This document shows positions 5,640-64,000 of a stretch of 64,000 nt of DNA, piece by piece. Every line of letters starts with the position of its first letter. Within the stretch, counting starts at the first letter, position 1. Under the pieces are notes generated by a model. It was not told where the DNA came from, ran no database searches, and worked only from the letters and a program-made list of their open reading frames with translations. Position numbers and translations under genes: made by a program. The DNA lies in the NCBI GenBank assembly GCA_963855995.1, contig OY979726.1, forward strand, positions 1,762,501-1,826,500, given 5' to 3'. This stretch comes from Muricea muricata (Eukaryota; Cnidaria; Anthozoa; Malacalcyonacea; Plexauridae).

Positions 5640-5865
5640 ATTTGCTTTGTATAACTCTATATCATTTCTAAACTGTTTTTCCTAGAGGTCTAGTAATTAA
5701 GGATCATCTCTTATTGATCCAGTGTTACTGAAGGAGGAAACCTGAACTAAACTAACTTTAGTTATACTGGATAGCTCTATCAGTTCTAAACTATTGTACC
5801 TAGAAGTCCAGTTAGGATCATCTCTTATTGATGTAGTGTTACTGCAGGAGGAAACCCAAACCATA
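5640..5865 (-). repeat. 114-bp dispersed repeat, two units
   Basis: Two units are read on the minus strand, with the reverse complements of AGAGCTATCCAGTATAAATA and GGATCAATAAGAGATGATCC. They lie just upstream of the first cyclase exon. Confidence 0.8.
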
Positions 5866-5978
5866 AACTATTATTCTAGTGCGTTAAATGCATAGACTGT
5901 ACGGATTCTCTACAAAATTCTAGCAATTGTAATTTTAATTCTAATTCCAAGTTATTTTTATTGTCTTTCTATTTCAAG

Positions 5979-21954: not shown

Positions 21955-23556
21955 TCACACGTAATCTCCTTCGTCTTCGATCATTTCAATTCTGGGCCTG
22001 CTAACACGTGGTTGTCCACGTGATGCCTGCGTGGTTCCGAGCTGGCTGAGAGATGAATGTTTGTGCATGTTAGCTTGTCGACTCCGATGTGGTGCGGGTA
22101 AGCTGTGGATAGATGAGGACGATGTTTGACGCGTGAAGCCCTGGTTGGGGGACACCATGGGACTTGTAGGGGGTGTGAATATCGGAGGCTCGCACATGGA
22201 AGCGGTTGAAAATAGTTTATACCAGCCAAATGCCATGCTGCTCAGGTCAAGATCAGATAAAAAAACTTGCACAACTCCCATGAAGACCTTACGATCCATG
22301 CGACCATAATCTCCCCACACGATCACCTTTGTAAGAGAAAATAAACACTTCTATAATTTCCCTTATTTGTGTTTGTTTTTCCCATTGTTTCCTATCAAGT
22401 ATCCTTCTTTACCCTGTTATCCTTTATCATCCCATTATCTTATAACATAACGCCTTGTAAATAGATGATAACTGACTCAAATATCCAACTTTCGTGTAAT
22501 TCTATATTAAGTCTAAATGACTTAAGTGAAAGACGAAACATAACTATTAAAATTTCTTTTGGACCTTATTGTATAAATAAACACTATCGGTAAAAATGAG
22601 AGATCAATCTCACAACTAACTGCAAGTTTGTTAACATGTTGTCATACGTTTTACATACTTATATCGAGTCTTGTTGCTCCAAGAGTTTGACAGGGAGTTT
22701 TGTAGTGCTTGTCAAGTTCTAAGAACGTTTGGAACAATCATAACTTAACTATACCTGTAAAGTTTTGTTCGAGACCTCGCAACGAAACTCCAGCTGTTGT
22801 TGATAAAGTGGCTCGAGAGTTCGTCTGGCAGTGCGCGTCTTTTTCTTCGCCAAGCATTTGCCGTTCTCCATCAGATAGACTTTCACATACGGCGCTTTAG
22901 GAAAATTAAATCACCTTAAGAAAATTAGAGCCCCAACCCCAAAGAAAATTGAAGCACCAAGAACTTAAAGGACAATCAAACATAAAGCTATCCAGTATAA
23001 ATAAAGTTAGTTTTGTTTAGGTTTCCTTTTGCAGTAACTCTGGATCAGTAACAGATGATCTTTACTGAACCTCTAGGAAGAACAGTTTAGAAATGATAGA
23101 GCTATCCAGTATAAATAAAGCTAGTTTAGTTTAGGTTTCCACCTGTAGTAACACTAGATCAATAAGAGATGATCCTTACTGGACCTCTAGGAAGAATAGT
23201 TTAGAACTGATAGAGCTATCCAGTATAAATAAAGCTAGTTTAGTTTAGGTTTCCACCTGTAGTAACACTAGATCAATAAGAGATGATCCTTACTGGACCT
23301 CTAGGAAGAACAGTTTAGAACTGATAGAGCTATCCAGTATAAATAAAGTTAGTTTGGTTTAGGTTTCCTTCTGCAGTAACACTGGGTCAATAAGATCTTT
23401 ACTGGACCTCTAAGAATTAAGAACAGTTCAGAACTTTACCCGGAAGTATCTTGGACCCAGGCTTTGGCAGTAAACCTCGAGCTCGGATGACTTCCACTTC
23501 AAAGACTCCTTTTCGATCATAAAAACTCAATTGAATATCACCCATACAAGGCGACG
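21955..23556 (-). CDS. RIM exons 15-17: C2B domain and C-terminal tail
   Basis: Residues 889-1097. Landmarks: GDIQLSFYDRKGVFEVEVIR, ARGLLPKPGSK, PYVKVYLMENGKCLAKKKTR, LEPLYQQQLEF, VIVWGDYGRMDRKVFMGV, LDLSSMAFGWYKLF. In vertebrate RIM, C2B binds liprin-alpha and PI(4,5)P2. The tail of about 80 residues is Ser/Pro/Gln-rich and ends DEGDYV; the final residues could be a C-terminal ligand motif, which is speculation. The stop lies at 21955-21957. Confidence 0.95.
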
Positions 23557-44700: not shown

Positions 44701-47464
44701 GTGAATAGACCCTTTCCCATGATGACATCAAGTCAAGCAAGATTGCCCACATACACGTCCGTTTCTATATTATACCTGAATGAAGATTTAATTGGATCCA
44801 GAATTGGATGATGAAATAGCTTGGAATTTCTAAAAAAATCAATGATGAAGCTTTCTTAAATTAACATAAATTAACTTAATTTAATTCTTAAATTAACATA
44901 AGTTAACTTAATTTATTTCTTAAATTAACATAAATTAACTTAATTTAATTCGCAAATTAGCATAAATTAACTTAATTTAACTCTTAAATTAACATAAATG
45001 AACTCAATTTAATTCTTAATCAACATAAGTTAACTTAATTTAATATTAAGTTTACAGTATTTTAACTTAATTTTGCATGAATTAACAAAGACTATTATAA
45101 AACATCAATGAGATTTACATACTTGTTTCGTATGGTTTCCACAGATTTCACCATGTCCGCATAATTTATACCAGAACTACTTGACGGATTCATGTTCACA
45201 CTAGTTCCAGCAAAATTCTCGTAGCTTTTTGAAACTTAAGGACAACATTATTTGAACTTTATTGGGGCTTCGTTGGCTTTCACCTCTGAGATCGCGGGTC
45301 TGATTAACAGGAAGAACTTCTCAACCTGACTCAAACCCAGCCCTCGTGTGCAAAGAGTTCTTTGTCAATAAGGCTCTGCCGAAAGTCGTGGGTTTTCTCT
45401 GGGCAGTGGCGACTTGTTTCCGAGTTTAGTCTCGCGATACAAATTTCAATTTGTCATCATTATTCATCTCTTTAAAAATTGAATGTTTTCACAACCACGG
45501 AACTTCAAATATTTGCATAGTGGGATTAAATCCTTAGTCTGGCTACGCTACTGTCTCTGGGTACTCCGGTTTCCTCCAACAGAGGAAGTTGACAGGAATA
45601 CGAGCCCACAACAATTGCCAAACAGCTACTGACCAAAAGTCTAATAGAGTCTCATTCGTCGACAAAAATAAAGTCCACGCTCTACTTTATATTTGAGATA
45701 ATTTTCACGTCCCAGAAGTATTAGGTCTACGAAATTTCTCCATATACCAGTTACTGTATAATGTAATAAAGGTGTCCAAGGCGAAAAGTGGCCAGAAGAG
45801 GAAAAGAACTATTGATTAAAAGTGTTACGTGGAACTTGAAATGATGTATAACCCTAAATTTTCTTACCTGTATTTAGATTTTTGGGCAGTAACTGTATGT
45901 GTTCTGGTAATCCTGCTCTTGTGGGAAACTACAATAGTTTTTATTGTGCGTACCCAACATGCTTGGTTCATCCATTGAAAAAGGATACAGCTTCATGCAC
46001 TCTTGTCTCGCTTGCACGAACTGGTTAAGATGGCGACACAGCTCAACCAGCAAGCCGTAACTGATCACTTCAGGAATGACAGCAGCTTCGTGTCTGCCTG
46101 AGCAAACCTCGCACAATTTTTCCAGCTCTCTTTCAAGCGTTTGGTAAAGCGAAACTAAGGACTGAAACACAAAACATTGGATAGTTTTGGTCGATTAAGG
46201 GCCAGTTGTAATGCTATCCCCCCGATAGTGATTTTTCAAGCTTTCCAAAATTGTTCAGTAACTGGTAAAACCAATATTAAGTTCAACATTTTCAAGTTAA
46301 AGTCACTTTTTATTACTTGCGAGTTCAATATTTCTGGTTTCACTGCCTTTTATGGCTTTTTGCAGCAGTTTAAAAATCACTATCCTGCGGACAGCGCTTT
46401 CCACCTCTAGTACAACCACCTCGGAGTTCTAGACTGAAGTAAAAAAGTCTTAATTGCAGAAAACTCCTTACGTCTTTTCTGAATCGCTTCTTCACCACGT
46501 ACGAGAATGATGAGTAAGTTTTTTCGGCATCAGCAAGAACTCCCAAGCTACTGATCAGAGAGAACCATGGAGATACGCCGGCAAGAGTCCCCTTTTTAGA
46601 GTTGCTTTCTTTTTCCTGAGCAATAAAGTAATACTGTCTGTAGAATTGAAACAATTACAGCAGACAAAAAACGCTGGCAATTTAATAATCACGGCTAGGG
46701 TTGGGCGATATTTCGATATTTTGATTTATCGTGATATTTCCAATCGCGATTATCGTATCGAAGCTAAAAACTTGAGTGACGATTTATCGAAATTATCGTC
46801 ATGTTCGATGACTATCGTGATATTGCTTAGAAATATGTATATAGCTTGCAGAATCCTAAAAAAGTAGAAAGTATCTTTGCATTCCAGCAACAAATATACC
46901 CTCAAAAAGCGTATTAGCAAGGCATCGATTATTGTAAATGCTTTTGGTAGTAGTTGTACTGCATGTTCATAATTTAGTTTTCCTTCCACAAAACATACAA
47001 TAAAATTGAACAGTACACATTATATTAAAACAGTTATGAGCAGTTAGCATTAGAGAAGGAAAAGCCTTCATATTACTTTAATCTGTTGCTGATTTGTCTT
47101 TAATAAGATTATATACAAGTTTATGCTTTGATATTAATTGTACTTGAAGAATATGGTCATTTTTTCTATTTTATTAATCGCGATATTATCGATTATCGCG
47201 ATATTTTCCATGACAATTTTTTAAATATCGCCCAGCCCTAATCACGGCAAGTCATAGACAAAGCAAAGCGAACTGGAAATGTAAGCAAACGCAAAGTTAT
47301 GTTGCAATCTAATTCTTACTACCAACTTACAGTCAATTCCTTGGCTTTATCAAAACCAAATTGACTAAGAACAAGAAAATATGTCTCAAGAAATGCCTGT
47401 TCGCTGCTCACCGCCTGCAAGGGTGAACTGGGACGAGATGAGACGTCGATTTCCACAAAAAATT
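41795..47464 (-). CDS. KICS2: KICS2 (C12orf66 family), KICSTOR complex subunit; first exon not found
   Basis: KICSTOR holds GATOR1 on lysosomes and so mediates inhibition of mTORC1 when amino acids are scarce. Exons (minus strand): 47464-47331, 46615-46472, 46161-45954, 45234-45123, 44829-44776, 44351-44204, 43895-43684, 42909-42744, 42384-42177, 41853-41795. Every junction keeps phase; 481 residues are read. The match to C12orf66 is colinear along the length: AFLETYFLVLSQFGFDKAKE, LADAEKTYSSFSYVVKKR, LCRHLNQFVQARQECMKLY, KLFHHPILDPIKSSF, DWKFLPSLLHLHES, SLYFHATLSEQTTPSEMKNL, TRGLDESFKGPGYHLPH and KIVYFFDDRSETTYYL. The first exon seen starts in phase 1 at an acceptor (TTTATTTAG), so a short exon with the ATG should lie beyond 47464; I could not locate it. 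The human protein is about 445 residues. Confidence 0.93.
41878..42170. repeat. CAA/AAC-rich simple repeat in the last KICS2 intron
   Basis: Degenerate ACAACAACAATAACAATAAC sequence. It fills the intron between KICS2 exons 9 and 10 and explains long poly-Thr/Asn and poly-Leu/Val open frames. Confidence 0.92.
43385..43560. repeat. TTG/TTGCTG-rich simple repeat
   Basis: TGTTGCTGTTGCTGCTACTG and related trinucleotide runs in the KICS2 intron between exons 7 and 8. Confidence 0.92.
43915..44190 (-). repeat. 114-bp repeat array, about 2.3 units, in KICS2
   Basis: Minus-strand units, more diverged than those in RIM, in the intron between KICS2 exons 6 and 7. It is the rightmost copy in the window. 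Confidence 0.88.
44857..45060. repeat. A/T-rich minisatellite
   Basis: About six units of roughly 36 bp: TTAAATTAACATAAATTAAC followed by TTAATTTAATTC, with small variants. In the KICS2 intron between exons 4 and 5. Confidence 0.9.
46696..47240. mobile_element. Non-autonomous hAT-like element with intact 8-bp target duplication
   Basis: The left end TAGGGTTGGGCGATATTT and the right end (reverse complement TAGGGCTGGGCGATATTT) are inverted repeats. The flanks are both ATCACGGC (46688-46695 and 47241-47248), a perfect 8-bp duplication. The TIR form and duplication length fit hAT elements. The interior is rich in ATCGCGATTATCG words and has no transposase. Inserted in the KICS2 intron between exons 1 and 2 of this model. 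Confidence 0.92.
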
Positions 47465-48505: not shown

Positions 48506-51060
48506 TTTCACATAAGGGCATAACAGCAAGACACATGAAGTCGTGATCACATCATGTTAAGTTACAATAACAGAACCAGGTAGCATATGGAATAAGGAAC
48601 CAAGACAGCTGAGTTTTAGAAAGCTGTGTTTTCATTAGTTAAAAAATAACAATTTCGTTCAACAAAGAACAACTATTCAATCATTTTCGTGAAGTTTCAA
48701 GTGATCTCAATTGACTCATGTCAAGTTATTGAAATTTCAAACTGACAACCAGTTTGGTTTTTTCTCTTTGGTTCTTTTGGTACCTAAATATTACAGCAAC
48801 AAAATATTACAGTATCAACTGTTTCCTGTTTTTAACCTCTCTGGAATATGTTTCATTTTGTATTTTAACCATAACTTGTTACCAACCTTAAAGAGGCATT
48901 AAAGTCTGTTCTTAATCTGCACATTTTTTCTAGGCATAACAAAGTGTGTATAATAAATGTCTCTCCTGGAATTTTAATCTAATTAAGCTCTTTACTTTCA
49001 AAGAGAAAGAGAAACAAACAGGGGCGGATCTAGGATTTTTTAAACGTCAGTCAAAAATTTTGGGCAGTGATGACGTCATAGTGATGACGTCACCAATACG
49101 ATGACGTCATCATATTAGCATTAACTTTGTTACAGCCACATTTGAACTCCACTGCTGTTTCACCCAAAATCAGGTTCATCAGCATGCTTAGGAAAGGCAT
49201 AAAGAGATTAATCTGACACACAAGCTTTAGTTTATTATACTTGTGTGAGTTTGTGATTTATAATTAGTTGCTAATAAACACATATACACAAAAGATTTCT
49301 TTTTTTGTTTGTTTATTTTTTGGCCTTCAAAATCTCATGCACTTACAAAAGGTCACAACTAGCCTGCATGCTATATCATATTTCATATTCTATGTTGACT
49401 GCCTTATTAGGAACAAAGGGACTGTTGTTACTAAATATTGTTTATGTTTGCATGACACCAACATATTGTTAGAAAACATTGTCCATTGTACATGATACCA
49501 ATGTGGTTCCTATTACCTATTTGAGTATTTATATTACCAGATATTGTTTTTTACCTTCCTTGTCTCATAGATTTACATTTGGTCACTCAGGCCTGACCCG
49601 CATGCTATATCGTATTTCATATTACATGGAGACTGTGCCATTATGAACAAGGAGACTGTTGACACCAAATATTGTTTTATTTTGCCAGACACCAATATGG
49701 TTTCTATTACCTATTATTAAATACTAAATAATAAGGATGAAAAAGTAAAGAACAAAATGATTAGGTTAAAAGTTTTTACCAGGTTCAAAACAAAACAACA
49801 GGTGAATTACATCCAAATCTATATTGCGATTATGCTGGTGAGGTTTAATTAGGTGGTTAAAAGCAATTTATATTGCAGCTCACCCCAATCAGGGTAGTAG
49901 ATACACATATTTGTACCTAAACAGATGAAAGACCCAAAATGCATCTAGAAATGATGACCACTTGTGACTACTACAATTCAAAATAGCCTCTTTTCTCACT
50001 AAGTCCTCTTAAGTAAGATTACTATCAAAACAATCTTTGGACACACACAAGGTAGAAGATTTTTATGGCAATAGTACTTATCATGCTCTTTCATCACAGA
50101 CAAGAAAAGGGTGTTGTGAATAAAAATTAGCATGAATGTAAAGCTCAAGAAGTTAAAATTCTCAAAGGCTGAGCAAAACTGTTATTGCCTACCAGTACCA
50201 AAGACACAGAACTGTTAAGGCAATCACCAGAGATATCAGATCTAGTAGAAATATTCAAAAATAAGTAATGTCACTTATATCTATAGTATCCAACAATACC
50301 ACAGGCAATGTCATATTTCAGAAATAAATACTATTAATAGATCAACAGAACTTTGGTTCATAAATGGTAATATACACAATATAACACACTTTCGTGTTGT
50401 GATTTAAAATTTTATATTGCATTTCAGTGATTTTACAAAGTTTACAACATAAGTTATAAAGTACACAACATTGTTTTGAAATCGAGTTGACCTTTGCACC
50501 CAACGCAAGTATATGCAAATATATCAATATGGTAATACCTACGAACGAAAGTCGTCCATATTTCACACTGTAAATCTACAACAATTGTATAATAGCACAT
50601 CAACAAAGTATTGTTGCCCAACTTAACTTATAGCAGAACACGCTTCGTTCTTCACTTCACGAGCATTTTTGGGCACGTAGCTTTCGGCTCCAAAGTTTTT
50701 AGCTATACTCCGATGGCGTCGTCTTGTGAATACACGTTCGTCAAAAGCTCTTGTGAATTTTACCCTTCATTTGGGTGTTAATACTTTCCAAAGGCTTCAT
50801 ATTGCCTCTGAGCAATTCCGATCTAACCATATCGTATTTGCAAGACATATTTTGCAAGACACAAAATATACACTTCTGTGAAACTACCACAGGATTCACC
50901 ACAGGATTCGTTCTTTCTAAAATTAACCAATGCGAAGTTACCACAGGACTCAGCGTCATTCGTTCATCCCCAAACTAGACGAACGCGAGCTTAGCACAGG
51001 ATTCAGATCCGGTCACAGCGTGATTAATTATGACGAACTGAACCATGAGTAAACCAGGCA
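48506..51060. other. Gene-free spacer up to the satellite
   Basis: A transposon-end-like GGGGCGGATCTAGGATTTTT lies at 49021. A diverged duplication (about 49310-49450 and 49540-49690) shares GCATGCTATATC and ATTTCATATT. From about 50890 the words ACCACAGGATTC recur four times, the same word that occurs inside the satellite's E-F junction. The KICS2 first exon might be here. No gene is recognised. Confidence 0.6.
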
Positions 51061-54000
51061 ATGTTTTTTGAAATTAAGGGGCGCGGGAACATCCTATTTA
51101 CTCGAATAACATATCAAACGAAAGCCCATTCTTCGTACTTCACAAATATATCATTTTTAACGTGGCACAAATTAGTGGCTTCACTATACGGGACGGCAAA
51201 CGAGATGAACGCTCCCTGCACCAGAAACTGCATATTAATTTATATTGCAAATATTATTTCACGCAATCGGAAAACGACTGATTTTTGTCGAGAGAAACGG
51301 TTCTCATTTGCTTGAATAACATATCGATCGAAAGCCCATATTGCATAGATTACAAGAATATATTTTTTAGCCTGGCACAAATTCGTGTCTTCATTCTACG
51401 GGCCGACAAACGAGAAAGAACGCACGCTTGAGACTTGTAGCTGCATAATAATTATTTTTGCTCAATCGGAAAAACAAGTGATTTTTGAAAAGAGAAACGG
51501 TTCTTATTTGCTTGAATAACATATCTATCGAAAGCCCATAATGCATAGATTACAAATACGTAATTTCTAGCCTGGCACAAATTCGCCGTTTTAATCTACG
51601 GGCAGCCAAAGGAGACGGAAGGCATGTTTGACATGTTAATTATTTTCCAGCAATGCTAAATACACGCGATTTTTGCCAAGAGAAACGGTGCGTATCTCCT
51701 TTACTAACATATCGATAGAAAGCCCGTGGCCTGTATATTACAAAGATGTAATTTTTAGCCTGGCACAAATTCGTGCCTACATTCTACGAGACGCTAAACC
51801 ACAAACAATACACGCATAACAATGTTCGATACTATTGTACGCACTTCCAAAATCAGCGATTTTCGTCCTCAGAAACGGCTTCTTTCCGCTTGAATGAGCT
51901 ATCAGCAGAAAGCTAATACATAGTAGATTACGATTATGCGACATTTAAACTGGCACAAATTCATCGATACATTTTACAGCACGGGGAACGCAATAAAACG
52001 CCCGCCGCCGATTCGGAATTCCATAACATGCCTTCCGTCCCTCGACTGAACTCGTCCGAATTCTAGTCCGAAAAACGTCTCCAATCCACTTGAAAACATA
52101 TCAGTAGACACCCCATGCTCCGTAGATTAGAAATATGTTAAATTCAAGCTGGCACAAATTCGTCGCTCCACTCTATAGACGAGAAAACGATTTTGTGAAG
52201 CTACCACAGGATTCGAACGCTCGAAGACGCATACTAATTAACTCTGACAACGTAAACAACAAACGATGATGTCATTGAGGAATACGACATGAAAATGTAG
52301 TATTCTATAATAATTGACGCGCACGCGAAAACGTGCGATTTTTAAAGAGAATCATCCCGAATATAGTCGAATAGCATATCATTAAAAAGCCCACAGCCTA
52401 TAGATTACAAATATGTAATTTCTAGCCTGGCACAAATTCGCTGTTTTAATCTACGGAAGGTGAAACAAGTAGAATGCTAGCTCGACACGTCAAACTGCAC
52501 ATTAATATTTTTTGCGCAATCAAAAATATACGCGATTTTTGTCAAGACAAACGGCTTGTATCTGCTTGAATAACATATCGATCGAAAGCCCATATTGCAT
52601 AGATTACAAGGATGTATTTTTTAGCCTGGCACAAATTCGTGTCTTCATTCTACGGGCCGACAAACGAGAGGGAACGCACGCTTGAGACTTGTAGCTGCAT
52701 AATAATTATTTTTGCTCAATCGGAAATACAAGTGATTTTTGACAAGAGAAACGGTCATAATTTGCTTGAATAACATATCTATCGAAAGCCCATATTGCAT
52801 AGATTACAAGAATATATTTTTTAGCCTGGCACAAATTTGTGTCTTCATTCTACGGGCCGACAAACGAGAGGGAACGCACGCTTGAGACTTGTAGCTGCAT
52901 AATAATTATTTTTGCTCAATCGGAAAAACAAGTGATTTTTGACAAGAGAAACGGTTCTTATTTGTTTGAATAACATATCTATCGAAAGCCCATAATGCAT
53001 AGATTACAAATACGTAATTTCTAGCCTGGCACAAATTCGCCGTTTTAATCTACGGGCAGCCAAAGGAGACGGAAGGCATGTTTGACATGTTAATTATTTT
53101 CCAGCAATGCTAAATACACGCGATTTTTGCCAAGAGAAACGGTGCGTATCTCCTTGAGTAACATATCGATAGAAAGCCCATGGCCTGTATATTACAAAGA
53201 TGTAATTTTTAGCCTGGCACAAATTCGTGCCTACATTCTACGAGACGCGAAGCCACAAACAATACACGCATAACAATGTTCGATACTATTGTACGCACTT
53301 CGAACATCAGCAATTTTCGTCCCGAGAAACGGCTTCTTTCCGCTTGAATAAGCTATCAACAGAAAGCTAATACATAGTAGATTACGATTATGCGACATTT
53401 AAACTGGCACAAATTCATCGATACATTTTACAGCACGGGGAACGCAATAAAACGCCCGCCGCCGATTCGGAATTCCATAACATGCCTTCCGTCCCTCGAA
53501 AACTGGCCCGGATTTTAGTCCGAAAAACGTCTCCAATCCACTTGAAAACATATCAGTAGACACCCCATGCTCCGTAGATTAGAAATATGTTAAATTCAAG
53601 CTGGCACAAATTCGTCGCTCCACTCTATAGACGAGAAAACGATTTTGTGAAGCTACCACAGGATTCGAACGCTCGAAGACGCATACTAATTAACTCTGAC
53701 AACGTAAACAACAAACGATGATGTCATTGAGGAATACGACGTGAAAATGTAGTATTCTATAATAATTGACGCGCACGCGAAAACGTGCGATTTTTGAAAG
53801 AGAATCATCCCGAATATAGTCGAATAGCATATCATTAAAAAGCCCATAGCCTATAGATTACAAATATGTAATTTCTAGCCTGGCACAAATTCGCTGTTTT
53901 AATCTACGGAAGGTGAAACAAGTAGAATGCTAGCTCGACACGTCAAACTGCATATTAATATTTTTTGCGCAATCAAAAATATACGCGATTTTTGTCAAGA

Positions 54001-55890
54001 CAAACGGCTTGTATCTGCTTGAATAACATATCGATCGAAAGCCCATATTGCATAGATTACAAGGATATATTTTTTAGCCTGGCACAAATTCGTGTCTTCA
54101 TTCTACGGGCCGACAAACGAGAGGGAACGCACGCTTGAGACTTGTAGCTGCATAATAATTATTTTTGCTCAATCGGAAAAACAAGTGATTTTTGACAAGA
54201 GAAACGGTCATAATTTGCTTGAATAACATATCTATCGAAAGCCCATATTGCATAGATTACAAGGATGTATTTTTTAGCCTGGCACAAATTCGTGTCTTCA
54301 TTCTACGGGCCGACAAACGAGAGGGAACGCACGCTTGAGACTTGTAGCTGCATAATAATTATTTTTGCTCAATCGGAAATACAAGTGATTTTTGTCAAGA
54401 GAAACGGTTCTTATTTGCTTGAATAACATATCTATCGAAAGCCCATATCGCATAGATTACAAGAATATATTTTTTAGCCTGGCACAAATTCGTGTCTTCA
54501 TTCTACGGGCCGACAAACGAGAGGGAACGCACGCTTGAGATTTGTAGCTGCATAATAATTATTTTTGCTCAATCGGAAAAACAAGTGATTTTTGAAAAGA
54601 GAAACGGTTCTTATTTGCTTGAATAACATATCTATCGAAAGCCCATAATGCATAGATTACAAATACGTAATTTCTAGCCTGGCACAAATTCGCCGTTTTA
54701 ATCTACGGGCAGCCAAAGGAGACGGAAGGCATGTTTGACATGTTAATTATTTTCCAGCAATGCTAAATACACGCGATTTTTGCCAAGAGAAACGGTGCGT
54801 ATCTCCTTGAGTAACATATCGATAGAAAGCCCGTGGCCTGTATATTACAAAGATGTAATTTTTAGCCTGGCACAAATTCGTGCCTACATTCTACGAGACG
54901 CTAAACCACAAACAATACACGCATAACAATCTTCGATACTATTGTACGCACTTCCAAAATCAGCGATTTTCGTCCTCAGAAACGGCTTCTTTCCGCTTGA
55001 ATGAGCTATCAGCAGAAAGCTAATACATAGTAGATTACGATTATGCGACATTTAAACTGGCACAAATTCATCGATACATTTTACAGCACGGGGAACGCAA
55101 TAAAACGCCCGCCGCCGATTCGGAATTCCATAACATGCCTTCCGTCCCTCGAAAACTGGCCCGGATTTTAGTCCGAAAAACGTCTCCAATCCACTTGAAA
55201 ACATATCAGTAGACACCCCATGCTCCGTAGATTAGAAATATGTTAAATTCAAGCTGGCACAAATTCGTCGCTCCACTCTATAGACGAGAAAACGATTTTG
55301 TGAAGCTACCACAGGATTCGAACGCTCGAAGACGCATACTAATTAACTCTGACAACGTAAACAACAAACGATGATGTCATTGAGGAATACGACGTGAAAA
55401 TGTAGTATTCTATAATAATTGACGCGCACGCGAGAACGTGCGATTTTTGAAAGAGAATCATCCCGAATATAGTCGAATAGCATATCATTAAAAAGCCCAC
55501 AGCCTATAGATTACAAATATGTAATTTCTAGCCTGGCACAAATTCGCCGTTTTAATCTACGGAAGGTGAAACGCGCAGAACAAAAGCTCGACTATTCAAG
55601 CTGCATGTTACTTATTTTTACGCAAGCAAGAATATACGCGATTTTTGTCAAGAGAAACGGCTTGTATCTGCTTGAATAACATATCGATCGAAGGCCCATA
55701 TTGCACAGATTACAAGGATATATTTTTTAGCCTGGCACATATTCGTGCCTACATTCTACGAGGCGCGAAACTAGAGACATGTATTGGTTGACCGGATTTT
55801 GTCTCCTCGAAAACATACAGTATCAATCAAATGCTCATAGTCAATGTATTACAAATATAAAATAGTTATACCGGTACAAATTGGTGGTTT
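51061..55890. repeat. Higher-order satellite array, left arm
   Basis: Twenty-four related monomers. The anchor TGGCAC (inside TAGCCTGGCACAAATTCG) falls at 51163, 51373, 51573, 51761, 51951, 52150, 52428, 52627, 52827, 53027, 53215, 53405, 53602, 53881, 54080, 54280, 54480, 54680, 54868, 55058, 55255, 55534 and 55733; a diverged last copy is near 55872. Steps are 188-210 bp except E to F, about 279. Types repeat in the order A B C D E F; B to B is 1454 then 1653 bp, the difference being one extra 200-bp A. Like-type monomers are nearly identical, unlike types share mainly an 85-bp core. Non-coding. Confidence 0.97.
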
Positions 55891-56153
55891 CGATCTACGG
55901 GATGTAAAATCAAAGTGCGATTTAATCTTACATGGGCAGGCGTAAATGAAAGTAATAAATAGAAGGAATTTTTAAATTTCAGGTGGAAATATGGGTGACG
56001 TCATGTTGTAACTAAATTTGAACGCTGTTGTCTGATTGGCGTCTTTTGAGACTGACCGTTGACTTCAACGGTTTGAATTTTTCGTGAGCGAAAAATATCG
56101 TATATATCTTAAATATTTGTTGTTTTTTTTGTGGAAGATTCCTATTTTTCATA

Positions 56154-56438
56154 ATGAAACGAACTGTTGGTAGACGTTTGAAATTGGCTTTCAACGTTGA
56201 TGACATATTGGCTGCTATGACAAGAATATGTGGCGATCCAAAGGAGACGTGGAGAGCAGTAAATGGATTTTGGGGAAAACTTGCCACGGAACTTGGTTTA
56301 AAGAATAAGATTCTGGTGAGGAAAAATTTAAATACGCGATGGATTGAAGACAGGAGAGGCCTTAGAAGCGAGTATGCGAAAATGTTAAAGGGAGAAGACA
56401 GTAGTCTATCCCGTCCGTATGGGATGGGAAGTAATTAG
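56154..56438 (+). CDS. Arm ORF A, 94-residue protein (left copy)
   Basis: Unrecognised. It starts MKRTVGRRLKLAFNVDDILA, followed by a charged helical region with spaced tryptophans (TWRAVNGFWGKLATELGL, then LNTRWIEDRRGLRSEYAKML). The spacing suggests a small helical, perhaps DNA-binding fold of Myb/MADF size; that is only an impression. The ATG context (CATAATGAAA) is good and the composition looks coding. The mirror copy at 61133-61417 encodes the same protein. The opposite-strand frame across it is a shadow. Confidence 0.6.
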   Translation: MKRTVGRRLKLAFNVDDILAAMTRICGDPKETWRAVNGFWGKLATELGLKNKILVRKNLNTRWIEDRRGLRSEYAKMLKGEDSSLSRPYGMGSN

Positions 56439-56472
56439 TATGCAAGCCTGTATGTAGAGAAATGACGTCATT

Positions 56473-56652
56473 GCAAGGATGTGCGCACGCTAGGATGTGC
56501 GCACTATCCCGATACACGCGAGGGTGTGTGCACTATCCCGATGCACGCGAGGATGTGTGCACTATCCGATACACGCGAGAATGTTCGCACTATCCGGATG
56601 CACGCGAGGATGTGCGCATTATTCGATCCACACGAGGATGTGCGCACGGAAA
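56473..56652 (+). repeat. Minisatellite, 28-29-bp unit (left copy)
   Basis: Six units of the form ATGTGCGCACTATCCCGATA followed by CACGCGAGG, right after ORF A. Three overlapping open frames here are products of the repeat. Mirrored at 60919-61098. Confidence 0.92.
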
Positions 56653-56908
56653 AAACACGTTTTTAGAAAGATGTATTGACAAAATGAAAATTTTACGTTA
56701 CCTTAAGTATAAGTATACATATATAGGTTTAGATACTGTTTGTTTTAGATATTAGATACTGTTTGTCCTGCTGGTTTTATGATGTTCACACATCAGTCCC
56801 AAGACACCCACAGTATGTAACTTGTCCGCATTCCAGGACGACGTCAAAGCACTGATCGGACTAGCATTATACATTCTGCGTGCACTGTTGTGTGTCAACA
56901 ATTAGTTA

Positions 56909-57079
56909 TCATAAGCTGTTCGTTGTCGCTCTTTTTTCCAAACATAAAAAACATAGTTGATTGTCCGGGAATAATGTCCAGCAATAGCCACAACGTATTG
57001 TCCCGTCGACCACGGACGATGCTGCCCAATGTCTAAAACACTCACAGTGAGCACCTTGGTGACAACACGGTGTATTCAT
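56909..57079 (-). CDS. Arm ORF B, 56-residue Cys/His-rich protein (left copy)
   Basis: A small frame preceded by an in-frame stop and starting at the first ATG: MNTPCCHQGAHCEC, then RCGYCWTLFPDNQLCFLC. Ligand pattern: C5, C6, H7, H11, C12, C14, H17, C30, C33, C43, C46; two CxxC pairs at the end suggest a zinc-binding treble-clef or ribbon fold. It runs against ORF A and ORF C. A 70-residue plus-strand frame (57029-57241) overlaps it but has no such pattern. Family unknown. The same protein is encoded at 60492-60662. Confidence 0.6.
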   Translation of the reverse strand: MNTPCCHQGAHCECFRHWAASSVVDGTIRCGYCWTLFPDNQLCFLCLEKRATTNSL

Positions 57080-57449
57080 AGCGAGTACCTCTTCGGCCTA
57101 GACATAGCTTCAAAACAGAAATGGCATTGCTTTTCTTCTATACCGTTTTCCGATAGTATACCAAATAGATGGATTATGGCTGTTGGCAAAATAACGCCTG
57201 GTGAAGGTAAAGCTCCAACTGTTCCCATTTTCGGATGTTGATGTCTTCAAGCGTATTATAAGTAAAGACTGGACAGGTGGTTCATGTGTGCTGCGAAGTA
57301 TGAAAAGGGAGATAAAGGGGGTATGACGAATACGAAATCGTACTGATTTTGGAGAAAAATATTAGAGCGTTTCTTGGTTTGCATAAATTAACACACGGAT
57401 TAACGTTTGGAATAATTTATTTTTGTAAGTATTACAGACAGTAGAGCTA

Positions 57450-57556
57450 TATTTTGTTAGTCTCGTACAAGTTTATGCGATGAGCAGATGAGCATCTGCT
57501 CATAACTGCTCATGAGCACATGCTCATACGCTCATAAGGCCCTATGTGGCCCGATG
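57450..57556 (+). promoter_or_regulatory. TGAGCA/TGCTCA cluster 1 (left), upstream of ORF C
   Basis: A module of about 105 bp: TTTTGTTAGTCTCGTACAAG, TTTATGCGATGAGCAGATGA, then overlapping palindromes of GAGCA/TGCTC (core ACTGCTCATGAGCACATGCT) and CCTATGTGGCCC. Nearly the same module lies upstream of the core gene (58331-58419). The repetition before two promoters suggests an operator or iteron set. Confidence 0.65.
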
Positions 57557-57619
57557 GCCGAGCACATATGAAACATACCATATTAAAATCTGATTGGTTT
57601 TTAGTTATCCTGCTAATAT

Positions 57620-57627
57620 TATAAAAT
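57620..57627 (+). promoter_or_regulatory. TATA box of ORF C (left)
   Basis: TATAAAAT 73 bp before the ORF C ATG, between cluster 1 and the gene. Mirrored at 59944-59951. Confidence 0.55.
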
Positions 57628-57699
57628 GATAATTTTGAGTCGGTAAGAGCATACCGCTTGCAACGTTCACAGAGATAAGACTTTTAGATTGCCAATTTA

Positions 57700-57915
57700 A
57701 TGGAGGAGAACTTATCGCGGTTACATGACCTGAACTTATCGCGGTTACATGACCTGAACAAGCGTGTGGCAGAGGCAAGAAAAAGAGTTGAATATTTGAA
57801 GAAAAAGAGAAATGCTTTATACCTTCGCAAAAGGACGGTTGACGTACAAACCTGGATGTTAAACAATTTTGTAGACGATGCATGCCGTGGCCTCAAAGAA
57901 ATAATTAAGACTTAG
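57700..57915 (+). CDS. Arm ORF C, 71-residue basic coiled-coil protein (left copy, with internal duplication)
   Basis: Starts MEENLSRLHDL; the 8-residue block LSRLHDLN occurs twice here because of a 24-bp tandem duplication that the right copy (63 residues) lacks. Then a Lys/Arg-rich helix, RVAEARKRVEYLKKKRNALY, with heptad-like leucine and valine spacing, and the tail WMLNNFVDDACRGLKEI. Function unknown; a small dimerising nucleic-acid-binding protein is one possibility. It has its own TATA box (57620) and AATAAA (58024). Confidence 0.65.
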   Translation: MEENLSRLHDLNLSRLHDLNKRVAEARKRVEYLKKKRNALYLRKRTVDVQTWMLNNFVDDACRGLKEIIKT

Positions 57916-58023
57916 AAACAACCAGGGAACGCTGTGCTTATATTTGTTATGTAGGATAGATCAAATAGAAATTCATCATCTAATGAAAAGCTGTAGTACA
58001 GTTTCTAATGAAAAGCTGTAGTA

Positions 58024-58029
58024 AATAAA
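58024..58029 (+). terminator. Poly(A) signal of ORF C (left)
   Basis: AATAAA 109 bp after the ORF C stop, followed by a T/G-rich stretch (GTTGAGTTTGTAGACGTTGT). Mirrored at 59566-59571. Confidence 0.6.
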
Positions 58030-58251
58030 GGATACAAACCTGTTGAGTTTGTAGACGTTGTTTTATTTGCTTGTCCTTAATACATTCACCCCACACCGGT
58101 CTCACACTGACCCAACATAGACCTTTTGTCGGCCCCACACCACCCTCTAATCAACCTCGTATAAGCAGATGGTCATCTGCATATACCAATAGTTGGGATC
58201 TACACAATGGTTATAGCTGTCAATACCTAACAGTTAGGGCCTTATCAGCTT

Positions 58252-58299
58252 TTGAGCACCTGCTCATAACTGCTCATGAGCACATGCTCATACGCTCAT
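58252..58299 (+). promoter_or_regulatory. TGAGCA/TGCTCA cluster 2 (left)
   Basis: Shorter version of the module: GAGCACCTGCTCATAACTGC, TCATGAGCACATGCTCATAC, then GGTCCCGATGTGGC. It overlaps the end of a 76-residue open frame (58071-58301) that I did not call. Confidence 0.6.
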
Positions 58300-58330
58300 A
58301 GGTCCCGATGTGGCTAGCCAAGTTAGTATA

Positions 58331-58419
58331 GCTATATATTTTGTTAGTCTTGTACAAGTTTATGCGATGAGCAGATGAGCGGGTGCTCATAACTGCTCAT
58401 GAGCACATGCTCATACGCT
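58331..58419 (+). promoter_or_regulatory. TGAGCA/TGCTCA cluster 3 (left), core gene promoter
   Basis: TTTTGTTAGTCTTGTACAAG and GCGATGAGCAGATGAGCGGG, then the TGCTCATGAGCA palindromes, ending exactly where the inverted repeat ends (58419). A TATA box follows at once, so the arm supplies the promoter of the core gene. Confidence 0.65.
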
Positions 58420-58428
58420 TATAAAAAT
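58420..58428 (+). promoter_or_regulatory. TATA box of the core gene
   Basis: TATAAAAAT at the first bases of the single-copy core. Transcription would start near 58450, which makes the ATG at 58478 the first start codon. Confidence 0.6.
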
Positions 58429-58477
58429 ACAGTGTTGCTCAGTGACAAGGCATTTCTACACAGTCAGTTCTAGCGGA

Positions 58478-59062
58478 ATGAGCTGTAAATTTTGCGGGAA
58501 AGCATTTAATCGTGATTTCAATCTCCGTCGACACGAAAACGAGCATTGTCCGCTGAAAAGCGAGGAGAGAGAAATGTCAGAAACAGAAATTCAGAGCTCA
58601 GAAGATGATGCTTCGAGCGTTGCAACTGACGGGTCTCAGAGTTCGATAACAGGAGACTCGGAAACTGAGGAGGAAGAAGTGGATCCTTGGATGCCCATGG
58701 TAGAAGAAGCGATGCAAAAGCATAAGGCGGCTTTTCAGGAGATGAAGATGAATTTGACTCAAAGTGGTCTGGATGAGGAAACCGCTGAGGAAACAGCTTA
58801 CTCTAATATTCTGCCTGAGCTCCAAAAGGAATTGGAAAGTATCTATTTGCAGCGTCTCCAATGAATACAACAACTAAAGAAAGATCCAGTGCATAAGAAA
58901 ATAATGGAAACAAAGGATGCGCTCGTGAACGATGATCATTTTGATCAAGAAGAGGCTATGGAAGCTGCTGTCAATAAGAGAAAATTTCTAATTAAAAGAC
59001 ATTTAAAAGACTACAGTTTTACTAGTTTTACTGAGGACAGTGATGATGAAGAAGATTATTAA
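58478..59062 (+). CDS. Core gene D: single C2H2 zinc-finger protein, frame broken by TGA at 58862
   Basis: Starts MSCKFCGKAFNRDFNLRRHE: one canonical finger C3-x2-C6-x12-H19-x3-H23. Then an acidic Ser/Glu/Asp region (30-68), a DPWMPMVEEAMQKHKAAF helix and a charged helical stretch ending LQKELESIYLQRLQ. At codon 129 there is a TGA, after which the same frame stays open for 65 codons with matching composition (KKDPVHKKIMETKDALV, ending FTEDSDDEEDY) to TAA at 59060. Either one base change has truncated the gene, or the stop is read through; a 128-residue product is also possible. It is the only gene not duplicated in the mirror arms. TATA at 58420 and AATAAA at 59091 frame it. Family name unknown to me. 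Confidence 0.7.
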
Positions 59063-59090
59063 CTACATTAATATTTGTCATATTGTTCTC

Positions 59091-59096
59091 AATAAA
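59091..59096 (+). terminator. Poly(A) signal of the core gene
   Basis: AATAAA 28 bp after the TAA that closes the extended frame, but more than 220 bp after the internal TGA. Its placement fits the longer frame as the original gene. Confidence 0.6.
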
Positions 59097-59149
59097 ATTA
59101 TATATACATATCCGAGTTTGATATTATTTTAATATGTGGGAGGGTTATA

Positions 59150-59264
59150 ACTGTCGGGCCACATAGGGACGTATGAGCGTATGAGCATGTGCTCATGAGC
59201 AGTTATGAGCACCCGCTCATCTGCTCATCGCATAAACTTGTACAAGACTAACAAAATATATAGC
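59150..59264 (-). promoter_or_regulatory. TGAGCA/TGCTCA cluster 3 (right)
   Basis: The mirror of 58331-58419. It also keeps the CCACATAGGGAC tail at 59158-59170 that cluster 3 on the left lacks but cluster 1 has. So the right boundary of the core retains a more complete module. Confidence 0.65.
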
Positions 59265-59295
59265 TATACTAACTTGGCTAGCCACATCGGGACCT

Positions 59296-59343
59296 ATGAG
59301 CGTATGAGCATGTGCTCATGAGCAGTTATGAGCAGGTGCTCAA
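59296..59343 (-). promoter_or_regulatory. TGAGCA/TGCTCA cluster 2 (right)
   Basis: Exact mirror of the cluster at 58252-58299. Confidence 0.6.
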
Positions 59344-59565
59344 AAGCTGATAAGGCCCTAACTGTTAGGTATTGACAGCTATAACCATTGTGTAGATCCC
59401 AACTATTGGTATATGCAGATGACCATCTGCTTATACGAGGTTGATTAGAGGGTGGTGTGGGGCCGACAAAAGGTCTATGTTGGGTCAGTGTGAGACCGGT
59501 GTGGGGTGAATGTATTAAGGACAAGCAAATAAAACAACGTCTACAAACTCAACAGGTTTGTATCC

Positions 59566-59571
59566 TTTATT
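59566..59571 (-). terminator. Poly(A) signal of ORF C (right)
   Basis: TTTATT on the plus strand; mirror of 58024-58029. Confidence 0.6.
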
Positions 59572-59679
59572 TACTACAGCTTTTCATTAGAAACTGTACT
59601 ACAGCTTTTCATTAGATGATGAATTTCTATTTGATCTATCCTACATAACAAATATAAGCACAGCGTTCCCTGGTTGTTT

Positions 59680-59871
59680 CTAAGTCTTAATTATTTCTTT
59701 GAGGCCACGGCATGCATCGTCTACAAAATTGTTTAACATCCAGGTTTGTACGTCAACCGTCCTTTTGCGAAGGTATAAAGCATTTCTCTTTTTCTTCAAA
59801 TATTCAACTCTTTTTCTTGCCTCTGCCACACGCTTGTTCAGGTCATGTAACCGCGATAAGTTCTCCTCCAT
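59680..59871 (-). CDS. Arm ORF C, 63-residue basic coiled-coil protein (right copy)
   Basis: Same protein as 57700-57915 without the repeated LSRLHDLN block, so probably the ancestral form. TATA at 59944-59951 and AATAAA at 59566-59571 are mirrored too. Confidence 0.65.
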   Translation of the reverse strand: MEENLSRLHDLNKRVAEARKRVEYLKKKRNALYLRKRTVDVQTWMLNNFVDDACRGLKEIIKT

Positions 59872-59943
59872 TAAATTGGCAATCTAAAAGTCTTATCTCT
59901 GTGAACGTTGCAAGCGGTATGCTCTTACCGACTCAAAATTATC

Positions 59944-59951
59944 ATTTTATA
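59944..59951 (-). promoter_or_regulatory. TATA box of ORF C (right)
   Basis: ATTTTATA on the plus strand, the mirror of 57620-57627. Confidence 0.55.
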
Positions 59952-60014
59952 ATATTAGCAGGATAACTAAAAACCAATCAGATTTTAATATGGTATGTTT
60001 CATATGTGCTCGGC

Positions 60015-60121
60015 CATCGGGCCACATAGGGCCTTATGAGCGTATGAGCATGTGCTCATGAGCAGTTATGAGCAGATGCTCATCTGCTCATCGCATAAAC
60101 TTGTACGAGACTAACAAAATA
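60015..60121 (-). promoter_or_regulatory. TGAGCA/TGCTCA cluster 1 (right)
   Basis: Mirror of 57450-57556, upstream of the right ORF C on the minus strand. Confidence 0.65.
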
Positions 60122-60491
60122 TAGCTCTACTGTCTGTAATACTTACAAAAATAAATTATTCCAAACGTTAATCCGTGTGTTAATTTATGCAAACCAAGAA
60201 ACGCTCTAATATTTTTCTCCAAAATCAGTACGATTTCGTATTCGTCATACCCCCTTTATCTCCCTTTTCATACTTCGCAGCACACATGAACCACCTGTCC
60301 AGTCTTTACTTATAATACGCTTGAAGACATCAACATCCGAAAATGGGAACAGTTGGAGCTTTACCTTCACCAGGCGTTATTTTGCCAACAGCCATAATCC
60401 ATCTATTTGGTATACTATCGGAAAACGGTATAGAAGAAAAGCAATGCCATTTCTGTTTTGAAGCTATGTCTAGGCCGAAGAGGTACTCGCT

Positions 60492-60662
60492 ATGAATACA
60501 CCGTGTTGTCACCAAGGTGCTCACTGTGAGTGTTTTAGACATTGGGCAGCATCGTCCGTGGTCGACGGGACAATACGTTGTGGCTATTGCTGGACATTAT
60601 TCCCGGACAATCAACTATGTTTTTTATGTTTGGAAAAAAGAGCGACAACGAACAGCTTATGA
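60492..60662 (+). CDS. Arm ORF B, 56-residue Cys/His-rich protein (right copy)
   Basis: Identical protein to the left copy; preceded in frame by TAG at 60474-60476. Eight cysteines and three histidines in 46 residues are far above chance. Confidence 0.6.
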   Translation: MNTPCCHQGAHCECFRHWAASSVVDGTIRCGYCWTLFPDNQLCFLCLEKRATTNSL

Positions 60663-60918
60663 TAACTAATTGTTGACACACAACAGTGCACGCAGAATGT
60701 ATAATGCTAGTCCGATCAGTGCTTTGACGTCGTCCTGGAATGCGGACAAGTTACATACTGTGGGTGTCTTGGGACTGATGTGTGAACATCATAAAACCAG
60801 CAGGACAAACAGTATCTAATATCTAAAACAAACAGTATCTAAACCTATATATGTATACTTATACTTAAGGTAACGTAAAATTTTCATTTTGTCAATACAT
60901 CTTTCTAAAAACGTGTTT

Positions 60919-61098
60919 TTTCCGTGCGCACATCCTCGTGTGGATCGAATAATGCGCACATCCTCGCGTGCATCCGGATAGTGCGAACATTCTCGCGTGT
61001 ATCGGATAGTGCACACATCCTCGCGTGCATCGGGATAGTGCACACACCCTCGCGTGTATCGGGATAGTGCGCACATCCTAGCGTGCGCACATCCTTGC
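60919..61098 (-). repeat. Minisatellite, 28-29-bp unit (right copy)
   Basis: Mirror of 56473-56652 with the same number of units, so copy number has not drifted since the arms last matched. Confidence 0.92.
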
Positions 61099-61132
61099 AA
61101 TGACGTCATTTCTCTACATACAGGCTTGCATA

Positions 61133-61417
61133 CTAATTACTTCCCATCCCATACGGACGGGATAGACTACTGTCTTCTCCCTTTAACATTTTCGCATACT
61201 CGCTTCTAAGGCCTCTCCTGTCTTCAATCCATCGCGTATTTAAATTTTTCCTCACCAGAATCTTATTCTTTAAACCAAGTTCCGTGGCAAGTTTTCCCCA
61301 AAATCCATTTACTGCTCTCCACGTCTCCTTTGGATCGCCACATATTCTTGTCATAGCAGCCAATATGTCATCAACGTTGAAAGCCAATTTCAAACGTCTA
61401 CCAACAGTTCGTTTCAT
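61133..61417 (-). CDS. Arm ORF A, 94-residue protein (right copy)
   Basis: Same length and residues as 56154-56438. Confidence 0.6.
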   Translation of the reverse strand: MKRTVGRRLKLAFNVDDILAAMTRICGDPKETWRAVNGFWGKLATELGLKNKILVRKNLNTRWIEDRRGLRSEYAKMLKGEDSSLSRPYGMGSN

Positions 61418-61680
61418 TATGAAAAATAGGAATCTTCCACAAAAAAAACAACAAATATTTAAGATATATACGATATTTTTCGCTCACGAAAAATTCAAAC
61501 CGTTGAAGTCAACGGTCAGTCTCAAAAGACGCCAATCAGACAACAGCGTTCAAATTTAGTTACAACATGACGTCACCCATATTTCCACCTGAAATTTAAA
61601 AATTCCTTCTATTTATTACTTTCATTTACGCCTGCCCATGTAAGATTAAATCGCACTTTGATTTTACATCCCGTAGATCG

Positions 61681-64000
61681 AAACCACCAATTTGTACCGG
61701 TATAACTATTTTATATTTGTAATACATTGACTATGAGCATTTGATTGATACTGTATGTTTTCGAGGAGACAAAATCCGGTCAACCAATACATGTCTCTAG
61801 TTTCGCGCCTCGTAGAATGTAGGCACGAATATGTGCCAGGCTAAAAAATATATCCTTGTAATCTGTGCAATATGGGCCTTCGATCGATATGTTATTCAAG
61901 CAGATACAAGCCGTTTCTCTTGACAAAAATCGCGTATATTCTTGCTTGCGTAAAAATAAGTAACATGCAGCTTGAATAGTCGAGCTTTTGTTCTGCGCGT
62001 TTCACCTTCCGTAGATTAAAACGGCGAATTTGTGCCAGGCTAGAAATTACATATTTGTAATCTATAGGCTATGGGCTTTTTAATGATATGCTATTCGACT
62101 ATATTCGGGATGATTCTCTTTCAAAAATCGCACGTTTTCGCGTGCGCGTCAATTATTATAGAATACTACATTTTCACGTCGTATTCCTCAATGACATCAT
62201 CGTTTGTTGTTTACGTTGTCAGAGTTAATTAGTATGCGTCTTCGAGCGTTCGAATCCTGTGCTAGCTTCACAAAATCGTTTTCTCGTCTATAGAGTGGAG
62301 CGACGAATTTGTGCCAGCTTGAATTTAACAGATTTCTAATCTACGGAGCATGGGGTGTCTACTGATATGTTTTCAAGTGGATTGGAGACGTTTTTCGGAC
62401 TAAAATCCGGGCCAGTTTTCGAGGGACGGAAGGCATGTTATGGAATTCCGAATCGGCGGCGGGCGTTTTATTGCGTTCCCCGTGCTGTAAAATGTATCGA
62501 TGAATTTGTGCCAGTTTAAATGTCGCATAATCGTAATCTACTATGTATTAGCTTTCTGCTGATAGCTCATTCAAGCGGAAAGAAGCCGTTTCTGAGGACG
62601 AAAATCGCTGATTTTGGAAGTGCGTACAATAGTATCGAACATTGTTATGCGTGTATTGTTTGTGGTTTAGCGTCTCGTAGAATGTAGGCACGAATTTGTG
62701 CCAGGCTAAAAATTACATCTTTGTAATATACAGGCCACGGGCTTTCTATCGATATGTTACTCAAGGAGATACGCACCGTTTCTCTTGGCAAAAATCGCGT
62801 GTATTTAGCATTGCTGGAAAATAATTAACATGTCAAACATGCCTTCCGTCTCCTTTGGCTGCCCGTAGATTAAAACGGCGAATTTGTGCCAGGCTAGAAA
62901 TTACGTATTTGTAATCTATGCATTATGGGCTTTCGATAGATATGTTATTCAAGCAAATAAGAACCGTTTCTCTTTTCAAAAATCACTTGTTTTTCCGATT
63001 GAGCAAAAATAATTATTATGCAGCTACAAGTCTCAAGCGTGCGTTCCCTCTCGTTTGTCGGCCCGTAGAATGAAGACACGAATTTGTGCCAGGCTAAAAA
63101 ATATATCCTTGTAATCTATGCAATATGGGCTTTCGATCGATATGTTATTCAAGCAGATACAAGCCGTTTGTCTTGACAAAAATCGCGTATATTTTTGATT
63201 GCGCAAAAAATATTAATATGCAGTTTGACGTGTCGAGCTAGCATTCTACTTGTTTCACCTTCCGTAGATTAAAACAGCGAATTTGTGCCAGGCTAGAAAT
63301 TACATATTTGTAATCTATAGGCTATGGGCTTTTTAATGATATGCTATTCGACTATATTCGGGATGATTCTCTTTCAAAAATCGCACGTTTTCGCGTGCGC
63401 GTCAATTATTATAGAATACTACATTTTCACGTCGTATTCCTCAATGACATCATCGTTTGTTGTTTACGTTGTCAGAGTTAATTAGTATGCGTCTTCGAGC
63501 GTTCGAATCCTGTGGTAGCTTCACAAAATCGTTTTCTCGTCTATAGAGTGGAGCGACGAATTTGTGCCAGCTTGAATTTAACAGATTTCTAATCTACGGA
63601 GCATGGGGTGTCTACTGATATGTTTTCAAGTGGATTGGAGACGTTTTTCGGACTAAAATCCGGGCCAGTTTTCGAGGGACGGAAGGCATGTTATGGAATT
63701 CCGAATCGGCGGCGGGCGTTTTATTGCGTTCCCCGTGCTGTAAAATGTATCGATGAATTTGTGCCAGTTTAAATGTCGCATAATCGTAATCTACTATGTA
63801 TTAGCTTTCTGCTGATAGCTCATTCAAGCGGAAAGAAGCCGTTTCTGAGGACGAAAATCGCTGATTTTGGAAGTGCGTACAATAGTATCGAACATTGTTA
63901 TGCGTGTATTGTTTGTGGTTTAGCGTCTCGTAGAATGTAGGCACGAATTTGTGCCAGGCTAAAAATTACATCTTTGTAATATACAGGCCACGGGCTTTCT
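61681..64000. repeat. Higher-order satellite array, right arm
   Basis: Reverse-complement monomers in the order H G F E D C B A F E D C, with the anchor CGAATTTGTGCCAGGCTA. There is one A between B and F where the left arm has three. The array runs off the window. Confidence 0.95.

Follow-up and report, generated by a model that had tools for sequence, protein, structure and literature searches.

The DNA considered here is a stretch of 64,000 nucleotides from the anthozoan Muricea muricata (GenBank assembly GCA_963855995.1, contig OY979726.1, positions 1,762,501 to 1,826,500 of the forward strand), hereafter referred to as the window. At its right-hand side lies a large mirror-image element, in our judgment probably a foldback-type DNA transposon, in which two inverted arms flank a short single-copy core. 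This layout was confirmed by a BLAST comparison of the window against itself and by repeat finding. The left arm, 54187-58423 on the forward strand, aligns with positions 63382-59172 at 97.8% identity over 4,240 columns, and both methods paired it with the right arm, 59172-63382 on the reverse strand. The core between them measures 748 bp (58424-59171, forward strand). With an inverted repeat of 4 kb, chance is not an issue. A first-pass annotation of the window had described arms of at least 4.8 kb in exact mirror register around 756 bp. The mirror image is real, but strict register is kept over ∼4.0-4.2 kb, and the size given for the core was not borne out.

A base-by-base comparison of the inner arms, 54450-58423 versus 63121-59172 (3.97 kb), revealed eight substitutions and one 24-bp difference, with the interval cut just inside a difference at position 54449, which favors low counts slightly. 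Farther out, at 54101-54449, the satellites of the two arms no longer align in register; differences in this part were excluded from the substitution rates, and only sequence from 54450 inward was used. Seven of the substitutions fall within ∼1.05 kb of satellite and one within ∼2.9 kb of unique arm (Fisher p 0.0006). The sole substitution in the unique arm sits four bases from the core. The 24-bp difference, which had been noted in the first-pass annotation, corresponds to a tandem unit at 57708-57731 that is present in the left arm only. Beyond the inner arms the satellite goes on at both sides, offset by whole monomers.

The outer parts of the element were correctly recognized beforehand as satellite. 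The left satellite (51095-55776, forward strand) is built from monomers of 188-279 bp, mostly ∼200 bp, arranged in a higher-order array with 23 regularly spaced copies of a short sequence box. The right satellite (61795-64000, reverse strand) contains the same monomers in mirror image, shows 11 boxes, and runs off the window. Equivalent monomers of the two arms are up to 100% alike. The innermost of the higher-order units spans 1,653 bp in the left arm versus 1,253 bp in the right, which accounts for the 400-bp arm difference reported earlier, and the gap of two 200-bp monomers is what unequal exchange would leave.

The box itself, TGGCACAAATT, is 11 bp in length and invariant in all 32 aligned monomers (22 from the left and 10 from the right). 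It is the longest run among the 44 invariant columns of 200, and a run of that length was reached in none of 100,000 column shuffles. Note that the monomers were located by the TGGCACAAATT motif, with up to three mismatches allowed, and that they are related by descent, so that the invariance partly reflects selection and kinship. The regular spacing leaves no space for a missed monomer between box matches, and a looser pattern recovers a more degenerate box at 55871. The box is a candidate protein-binding site. A match to the satellite box in a bacterial contig proved to be a 21-bp chance match in otherwise unrelated sequence.

The core carries a gene for a single-finger protein, the open reading frame (ORF) of which extends over 128 codons from 58478 to 58864 on the forward strand and ends at an in-frame TGA. 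As had been claimed, this gene is present once in the window; its finger is of the C2HC form. The ligand pattern, C-x2-C-x12-H-x3/4-C, is followed by an acidic stretch and by a C-terminal part without a Pfam family. The search for relatives yielded 491 at E≤0.1 among 496 candidates, and per-sequence counts were taken from 120 of the 491. The ligand pattern is kept in 97 of these 120, and 73 of them are at least 188 residues long. Of the 23 without the pattern, 5 are represented from a later start, without the finger, and 18 have lost at least one ligand. At the position of the TGA (58862-58864), 91 of the 120 have a tryptophan, the codon for which is one change away from a stop. Beyond the TGA, the same frame stays open to 59063 and encodes the remaining residues known from the family, and two of the relatives, P0050 and P0064, stop at the same residue as the ORF in the window. 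The Pfam finger match lies below the curated cut-off (21.9 versus 25.2 bits) and is the only Pfam recognition among the three gene families of the element. Searches of NCBIfam, PHROGs, and solved structures gave nothing beyond the finger, with all NCBIfam matches far below the cut-off. Upstream of the gene, at the border between the left arm and the core (58420-58429, forward strand), lies a TATA-like sequence, a putative promoter element, and behind the gene, at 59091-59096 (forward strand), is an AATAAA, a putative poly(A) signal.

Both borders of the core are marked by quasi-palindromic modules built from ATGAGC and TGCTCAT. In the left arm there are three, all on the forward strand: module a upstream of the coiled-coil gene discussed below (57474-57545; single-strand fold z of -3.84), module b (58245-58310; z of -2.98), and module c (58360-58431; z of -4.52), which contains the arm/core border at 58423. 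All three are mirrored on the right, where module c recurs at the opposite arm/core border (59172-59240, reverse strand) with a z of -5.44. Only one of 200 shuffles folded as well as module a, and none of 200 did so for each of the other three. On either side, module c terminates at the border between arm and core; its right copy runs on into flank resembling that of modules a and b, and its left copy runs into the TATA-like sequence. The words GAGCA/TGCTC occur at 13.8 per kb in 57400-60150 versus 1.5 per kb in the host part of the window. With modules at the borders, folding above that of shuffles, and enrichment of the words, fold-back copying would be the most economical origin of the palindrome. 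Palindromes of the form TGACGTCA near the first arm gene were also considered and found not to be special, as 8 of the 12 in the window lie outside the element.

Three small ORFs had been described as duplicated in the arms, and two of them are backed by relatives. The first, ORF1, is a mini-gene of 94 residues located at 56154-56438 on the forward strand and at 61133-61417 on the reverse strand, the two translations being identical. Of 9 candidate relatives, 8 pass at E≤1, the best being 98% identical. A POU-like fold was suggested by two of four relatives scanned (E 0.14-0.2), but the copy in the window gave no match, and the family profile against solved structures was not significant (E 0.24); such a fold is not claimed. 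The second gene encodes a coiled coil. Its left copy (57700-57915, forward strand; 71 residues) includes an 8-residue tandem unit, namely the 24-bp unit of the left arm, and its right copy (59680-59871, reverse strand; 63 residues) is without it. With the right-arm copy as the query, 68 relatives were found, and 8 of these have the 8-residue unit. The coil tail is truncated in both arms (EIIKT), a form seen in none of the 68 relatives; a tail of the RRLR type is present in 51 of them. Given this common lesion, one arm was most simply copied from the other. Another duplicated ORF, 97 residues at 56462-56755 with its mirror at 60816-61109, stays open in both arms across a 29/57-bp minisatellite (56486-56647, forward strand; mirror copy 60924-61086, reverse strand). 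It is largely a translation of the minisatellite and is probably not a gene. A further ORF of 70 residues at 57029-57241 has no Pfam match.

The distribution of the gene families was explored by using equal size of the longest contig among the matches as a proxy for the same contig. The 120 zinc-finger relatives considered represent 116 distinct contig sizes and the 68 coil relatives 65. Eight sizes are shared to the base between the two sets, whereas 0.02 would be expected by jitter, and two of the shared contigs are smaller than 150 kb (54,842 and 120,261). The zinc-finger and coil genes thus look dispersed and partly linked, with a contig shared in several cases.

The first-pass annotation had found no transposase, integrase, polymerase, or capsid gene, and this held up for the ORFs scanned. 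Thirteen stop-to-stop ORFs of at least 75 residues were collected from the left half of the element and the core, and 12 of them were searched against Pfam; the scan did not include 57687-57911 (reverse strand) or the mirror ORFs of the right arm, and genes made of short exons or lying beyond 64000 would also escape it. Within this set, no match to a transposase, integrase, polymerase, or capsid family was obtained. There was likewise no match to a THAP domain or a P-type transposase in the 12 ORFs or in a suspected remnant, a result still compatible with derivation by deletion. The remnant, a frame-shifted THAP candidate noticed by eye near 57100-57340, received no support from Pfam or solved structures. 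Neither a His-Me nuclease nor a transposase domain of the KolobokP type was present in the scanned ORFs. The three proteins tested against PHROGs gave no match at E≤0.01, scans of viral-contig and prokaryote-contig collections gave no relatives, and Rfam recognized nothing in the window at gathering scores. A scan for bacterial promoters and terminators was uninformative for an animal gene.

The extent of the element can be judged in part from its composition. The CpG observed/expected ratio, computed in 300-bp steps, is 0.63 at 49001, stays at 0.0-0.33 over the six steps 49201-50201, and reaches 1.02-1.88 over the steps 50401-56001; in the background, 500-bp windows average 0.81 (standard deviation 0.32, maximum 1.82). 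This step suggests a left end near 50.4 kb, to the left of position 51061. A probable outer flank, with an approximate left end, therefore spans 50400-51094. It contains degenerate copies of the satellite motif (CCACAGGATTC) and short matches to satellite units at 50874-51004. Farther inward the ratio declines, to 0.83-1.53 over the gene-bearing part of the arm and to 0.39-0.99 in the steps 58001-59401 around the core, so the step delimits a border without setting off the element in full. Symmetry of the element would place its right end near 67.2 kb. As the satellite runs past 64000, that end and any target-site duplication are out of view.

The remainder of the window is animal DNA, as indicated by recognizable exons of animal genes to the left of the element. 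These correspond to an adenylate/guanylate cyclase (8830-9180 and 17091-17534, forward strand), a RIM-like PDZ domain (28725-29045, reverse strand), and a KICSTOR C12orf66-like protein (42139-42441 and 45877-46194, reverse strand), the element being located to the right of the last of these. The best solved-structure matches of the PDZ exon are RIM1 and RIM2. Short arrays of a 114-bp tandem unit occur at 15998-16382, 22982-23435, 23742-24042, 25299-25679, and 28245-28755, one of them in the opposite orientation, and a related stretch lies at 5617-5870. This unit is probably carried by another mobile element. A 32-bp AT-rich unit forms an array of 6.9 copies at 44853-45073.

The layout had been regarded as unlike that of any class of DNA transposon. 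That view does not hold, for it matches the layout of foldback elements as given in those parts of the published accounts on which the following comparisons draw. Tetris from Drosophila virilis consists of an outer flank, ∼220-bp tandem repeats, an inner portion of the arm, and a middle domain, with repeat numbers that vary between alleles and arms of up to 1,735 bp (PMC4079207). No transposase is known for it, its complete copies have no conserved ORFs, and it has been proposed to belong to the Mutator superfamily, for which target-site duplications of 8-10 bp are expected (PMC4079207). The same succession of flank, arm tandem repeats, inner arm, and middle domain is seen here; unlike Tetris, the present element has three gene families with relatives, a higher-order satellite, and longer arms. 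Galileo, of the P superfamily, has ∼210-bp tandem units in one subfamily, with numbers differing between the arms, and its "2RT" copies have arms extended by recruited internal sequence of the element, the mechanism of arm growth being only suggested (PMC3573991). The longest Galileo arms, ∼1.26 kb, belong to non-autonomous copies (PMC3573991). The arm repeats carry further binding sites for the THAP domain of the transposase (PMC3688188), and the long arms have been proposed to cause breaks via secondary structure (PMC2775673). The element described here resembles the "2RT" copies in its long repetitive inverted arms, its unequal unit numbers, and the internal sequence within its arms, but the arms are at least 4.2 kb, or ∼8 kb if symmetric, and contain small genes. 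It thus matches Tetris and Galileo in kind and, as far as those accounts go, exceeds both in size and gene content.

Two other elements invite comparison, again from portions of their descriptions. Teratorn is derived from a herpesvirus, encodes an active transposase, and has long inverted repeats bordering a unique region (PMC6431247). The repeats and the unique region are alike in the present case, but no transposase or viral genes were seen in the scanned ORFs. KolobokP, an animal DNA transposon that encodes a transposase and a His-Me nuclease, has long terminal direct repeats of ∼450 or 660 bp together with a small additional gene (PMC9587614). It is similar in being an animal element with long repeats and a small gene; it differs in that the present repeats are inverted and in that no such domains occur in the scanned ORFs. 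We do not assign the element to the P or the Mutator superfamily. Among published work, judged mostly by titles and the beginnings of abstracts, no gene-bearing foldback of such form was found, which is weak evidence of novelty.

Taken together, the locus probably represents a single copy of a foldback-type DNA transposon that is large and non-autonomous and whose palindrome arose by inverted duplication within the element. The traits expected of a foldback element are seen in the 4.2-kb inverted arms around a short single-copy middle and in arm tandem repeats that differ in number. With respect to dispersed copies of the same architecture, what was found are genes with many relatives, some on contigs of equal size; the layout of no other copy was seen. 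In this reading, the satellite arms would serve as extended terminal inverted repeats, and a transposase provided from outside the element would likely dock at the TGGCACAAATT box. The small proteins, that is, the C2HC finger with its acidic region, the coiled coil, and the 94-residue protein, would most likely be accessory or regulatory DNA-binding or scaffold proteins. An ancestral copy may have possessed a single ORF1, a single coil gene, and a single zinc-finger gene. Copying in inverted orientation, through either fold-back repair or a template switch, would then have turned at the ATGAGC/TGCTCAT modules on either side of the zinc-finger gene, and the half with ORF1 and the coil gene would have been copied over the other half. 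In this manner two genes would have entered the repeat, leaving the zinc-finger gene in the loop. The near-identity of the unique part may be maintained by conversion between the arms, and unequal exchange may alter the number of satellite monomers. The single substitution in the ∼2.9 kb of unique arm versus seven in the ∼1.05 kb of satellite fits conversion together with array exchange.

Several observations weigh against this interpretation. The palindromic layout is known from this one copy, no transposase was recognized among the ORFs scanned, and the window shows neither the right end, which lies beyond 64000, nor a target-site duplication. In the sources considered here, the arms of Galileo and Tetris are far shorter, and no small genes are mentioned within them. 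The core and inner arms (58001-59600, with a CpG ratio of 0.39-0.99) differ in composition from the outer arms. One of the eight shared contigs (1,533,754) belongs to the window's own zinc-finger cluster, P0058, and since equal size is only a proxy and megabase contigs can hold unlinked copies, linkage of the zinc-finger and coil genes is supported but not proven. The 8 members of the 94-residue family share one contig size with the coil family and none with the 120 zinc-finger relatives considered. With 8 relatives versus 68 and 491, and with few shared contigs, the three genes need not travel together; the 94-residue gene is rarer, or is often missed.

Somewhat unlikely, but deserving of attention, is a local accident, in which an ordinary, non-foldback, gene-bearing element with a satellite underwent inverted duplication after its insertion, so that the palindrome is private to this locus and has never moved. 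The single locus is in keeping with such an event, as are the palindromic modules at both borders, which are plausible turning points, and a very recent origin would explain why the unique arms differ by one substitution and the 24-bp unit in ∼2.9 kb. The satellites of the arms, on the other hand, differ in monomer number and sequence, which calls for time or active exchange, and long repetitive inverted arms recur in foldback families such as Tetris and Galileo, according to the parts of their descriptions drawn on above. An artefact of the assembly or library, in which a fold-back join or chimera formed at the modules and the right arm is not truly beside the core, is in our opinion improbable. 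Quasi-palindromic turning points are a likely trouble spot, and the unique arm parts are near-identical. In line with the first-pass annotation, however, such a fold-back is at odds with a 748-bp unique core, found once in the window, that separates the arms, and the 24-bp coding unit, which is shared with 8 of the 68 coil relatives, the two extra monomers, and the eight substitutions would not have come from a single folded molecule.

The first-pass annotation had also pointed to a linear replicon or to the fusion of two elements. It is very unlikely that the locus is a linear replicon or a virus-like element bearing long inverted repeats, perhaps integrated and with its replication genes elsewhere. 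Teratorn does provide a precedent for long inverted repeats around a unique region (PMC6431247, in the portion considered), and the compact genes with TATA-like and AATAAA sequences would suit such an element. The ORFs scanned, however, gave no evidence of a replicon: there was no polymerase, capsid, integrase, or protease match among them, no PHROG match at E≤0.01 for any of the three proteins tested, and no relative in four scans of viral contigs. To our knowledge, higher-order satellite arms are not a feature of replicons, and this also counts against the idea. The head-to-head fusion of two separately inserted copies would likewise produce inverted arms, meeting at a central joint, but it is scarcely credible here. 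It would need two near-identical copies, both with the EIIKT tail seen in none of the 68 relatives and with near-identical unique sequence, which the copying of one arm accounts for more simply, and the core carries a family gene rather than the scar of a joint.

A bolder extension of the foldback reading, which we hold to be unlikely, is that the element represents a new lineage of animal DNA transposons for which the palindrome is the normal form: a single-copy zinc-finger gene enclosed by giant satellite arms, each with a pair of mini-genes. The small proteins encoded by the element would unite the arms by binding both the box and the ATGAGC modules, conversion would serve as a backup of the arm genes, and the enzyme would be provided in trans by a partner element.

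The foldback interpretation bears on how the arms of such elements grow. In the present case they would have taken in two small genes, the same palindromic module lies at the putative turning points on both sides, and the satellite has a higher-order pattern. The protein families, with 491, 68, and 8 relatives, could help in tracing the partner enzyme. Should the arms indeed undergo conversion, the element would be mobile DNA that maintains spare copies of its own genes.

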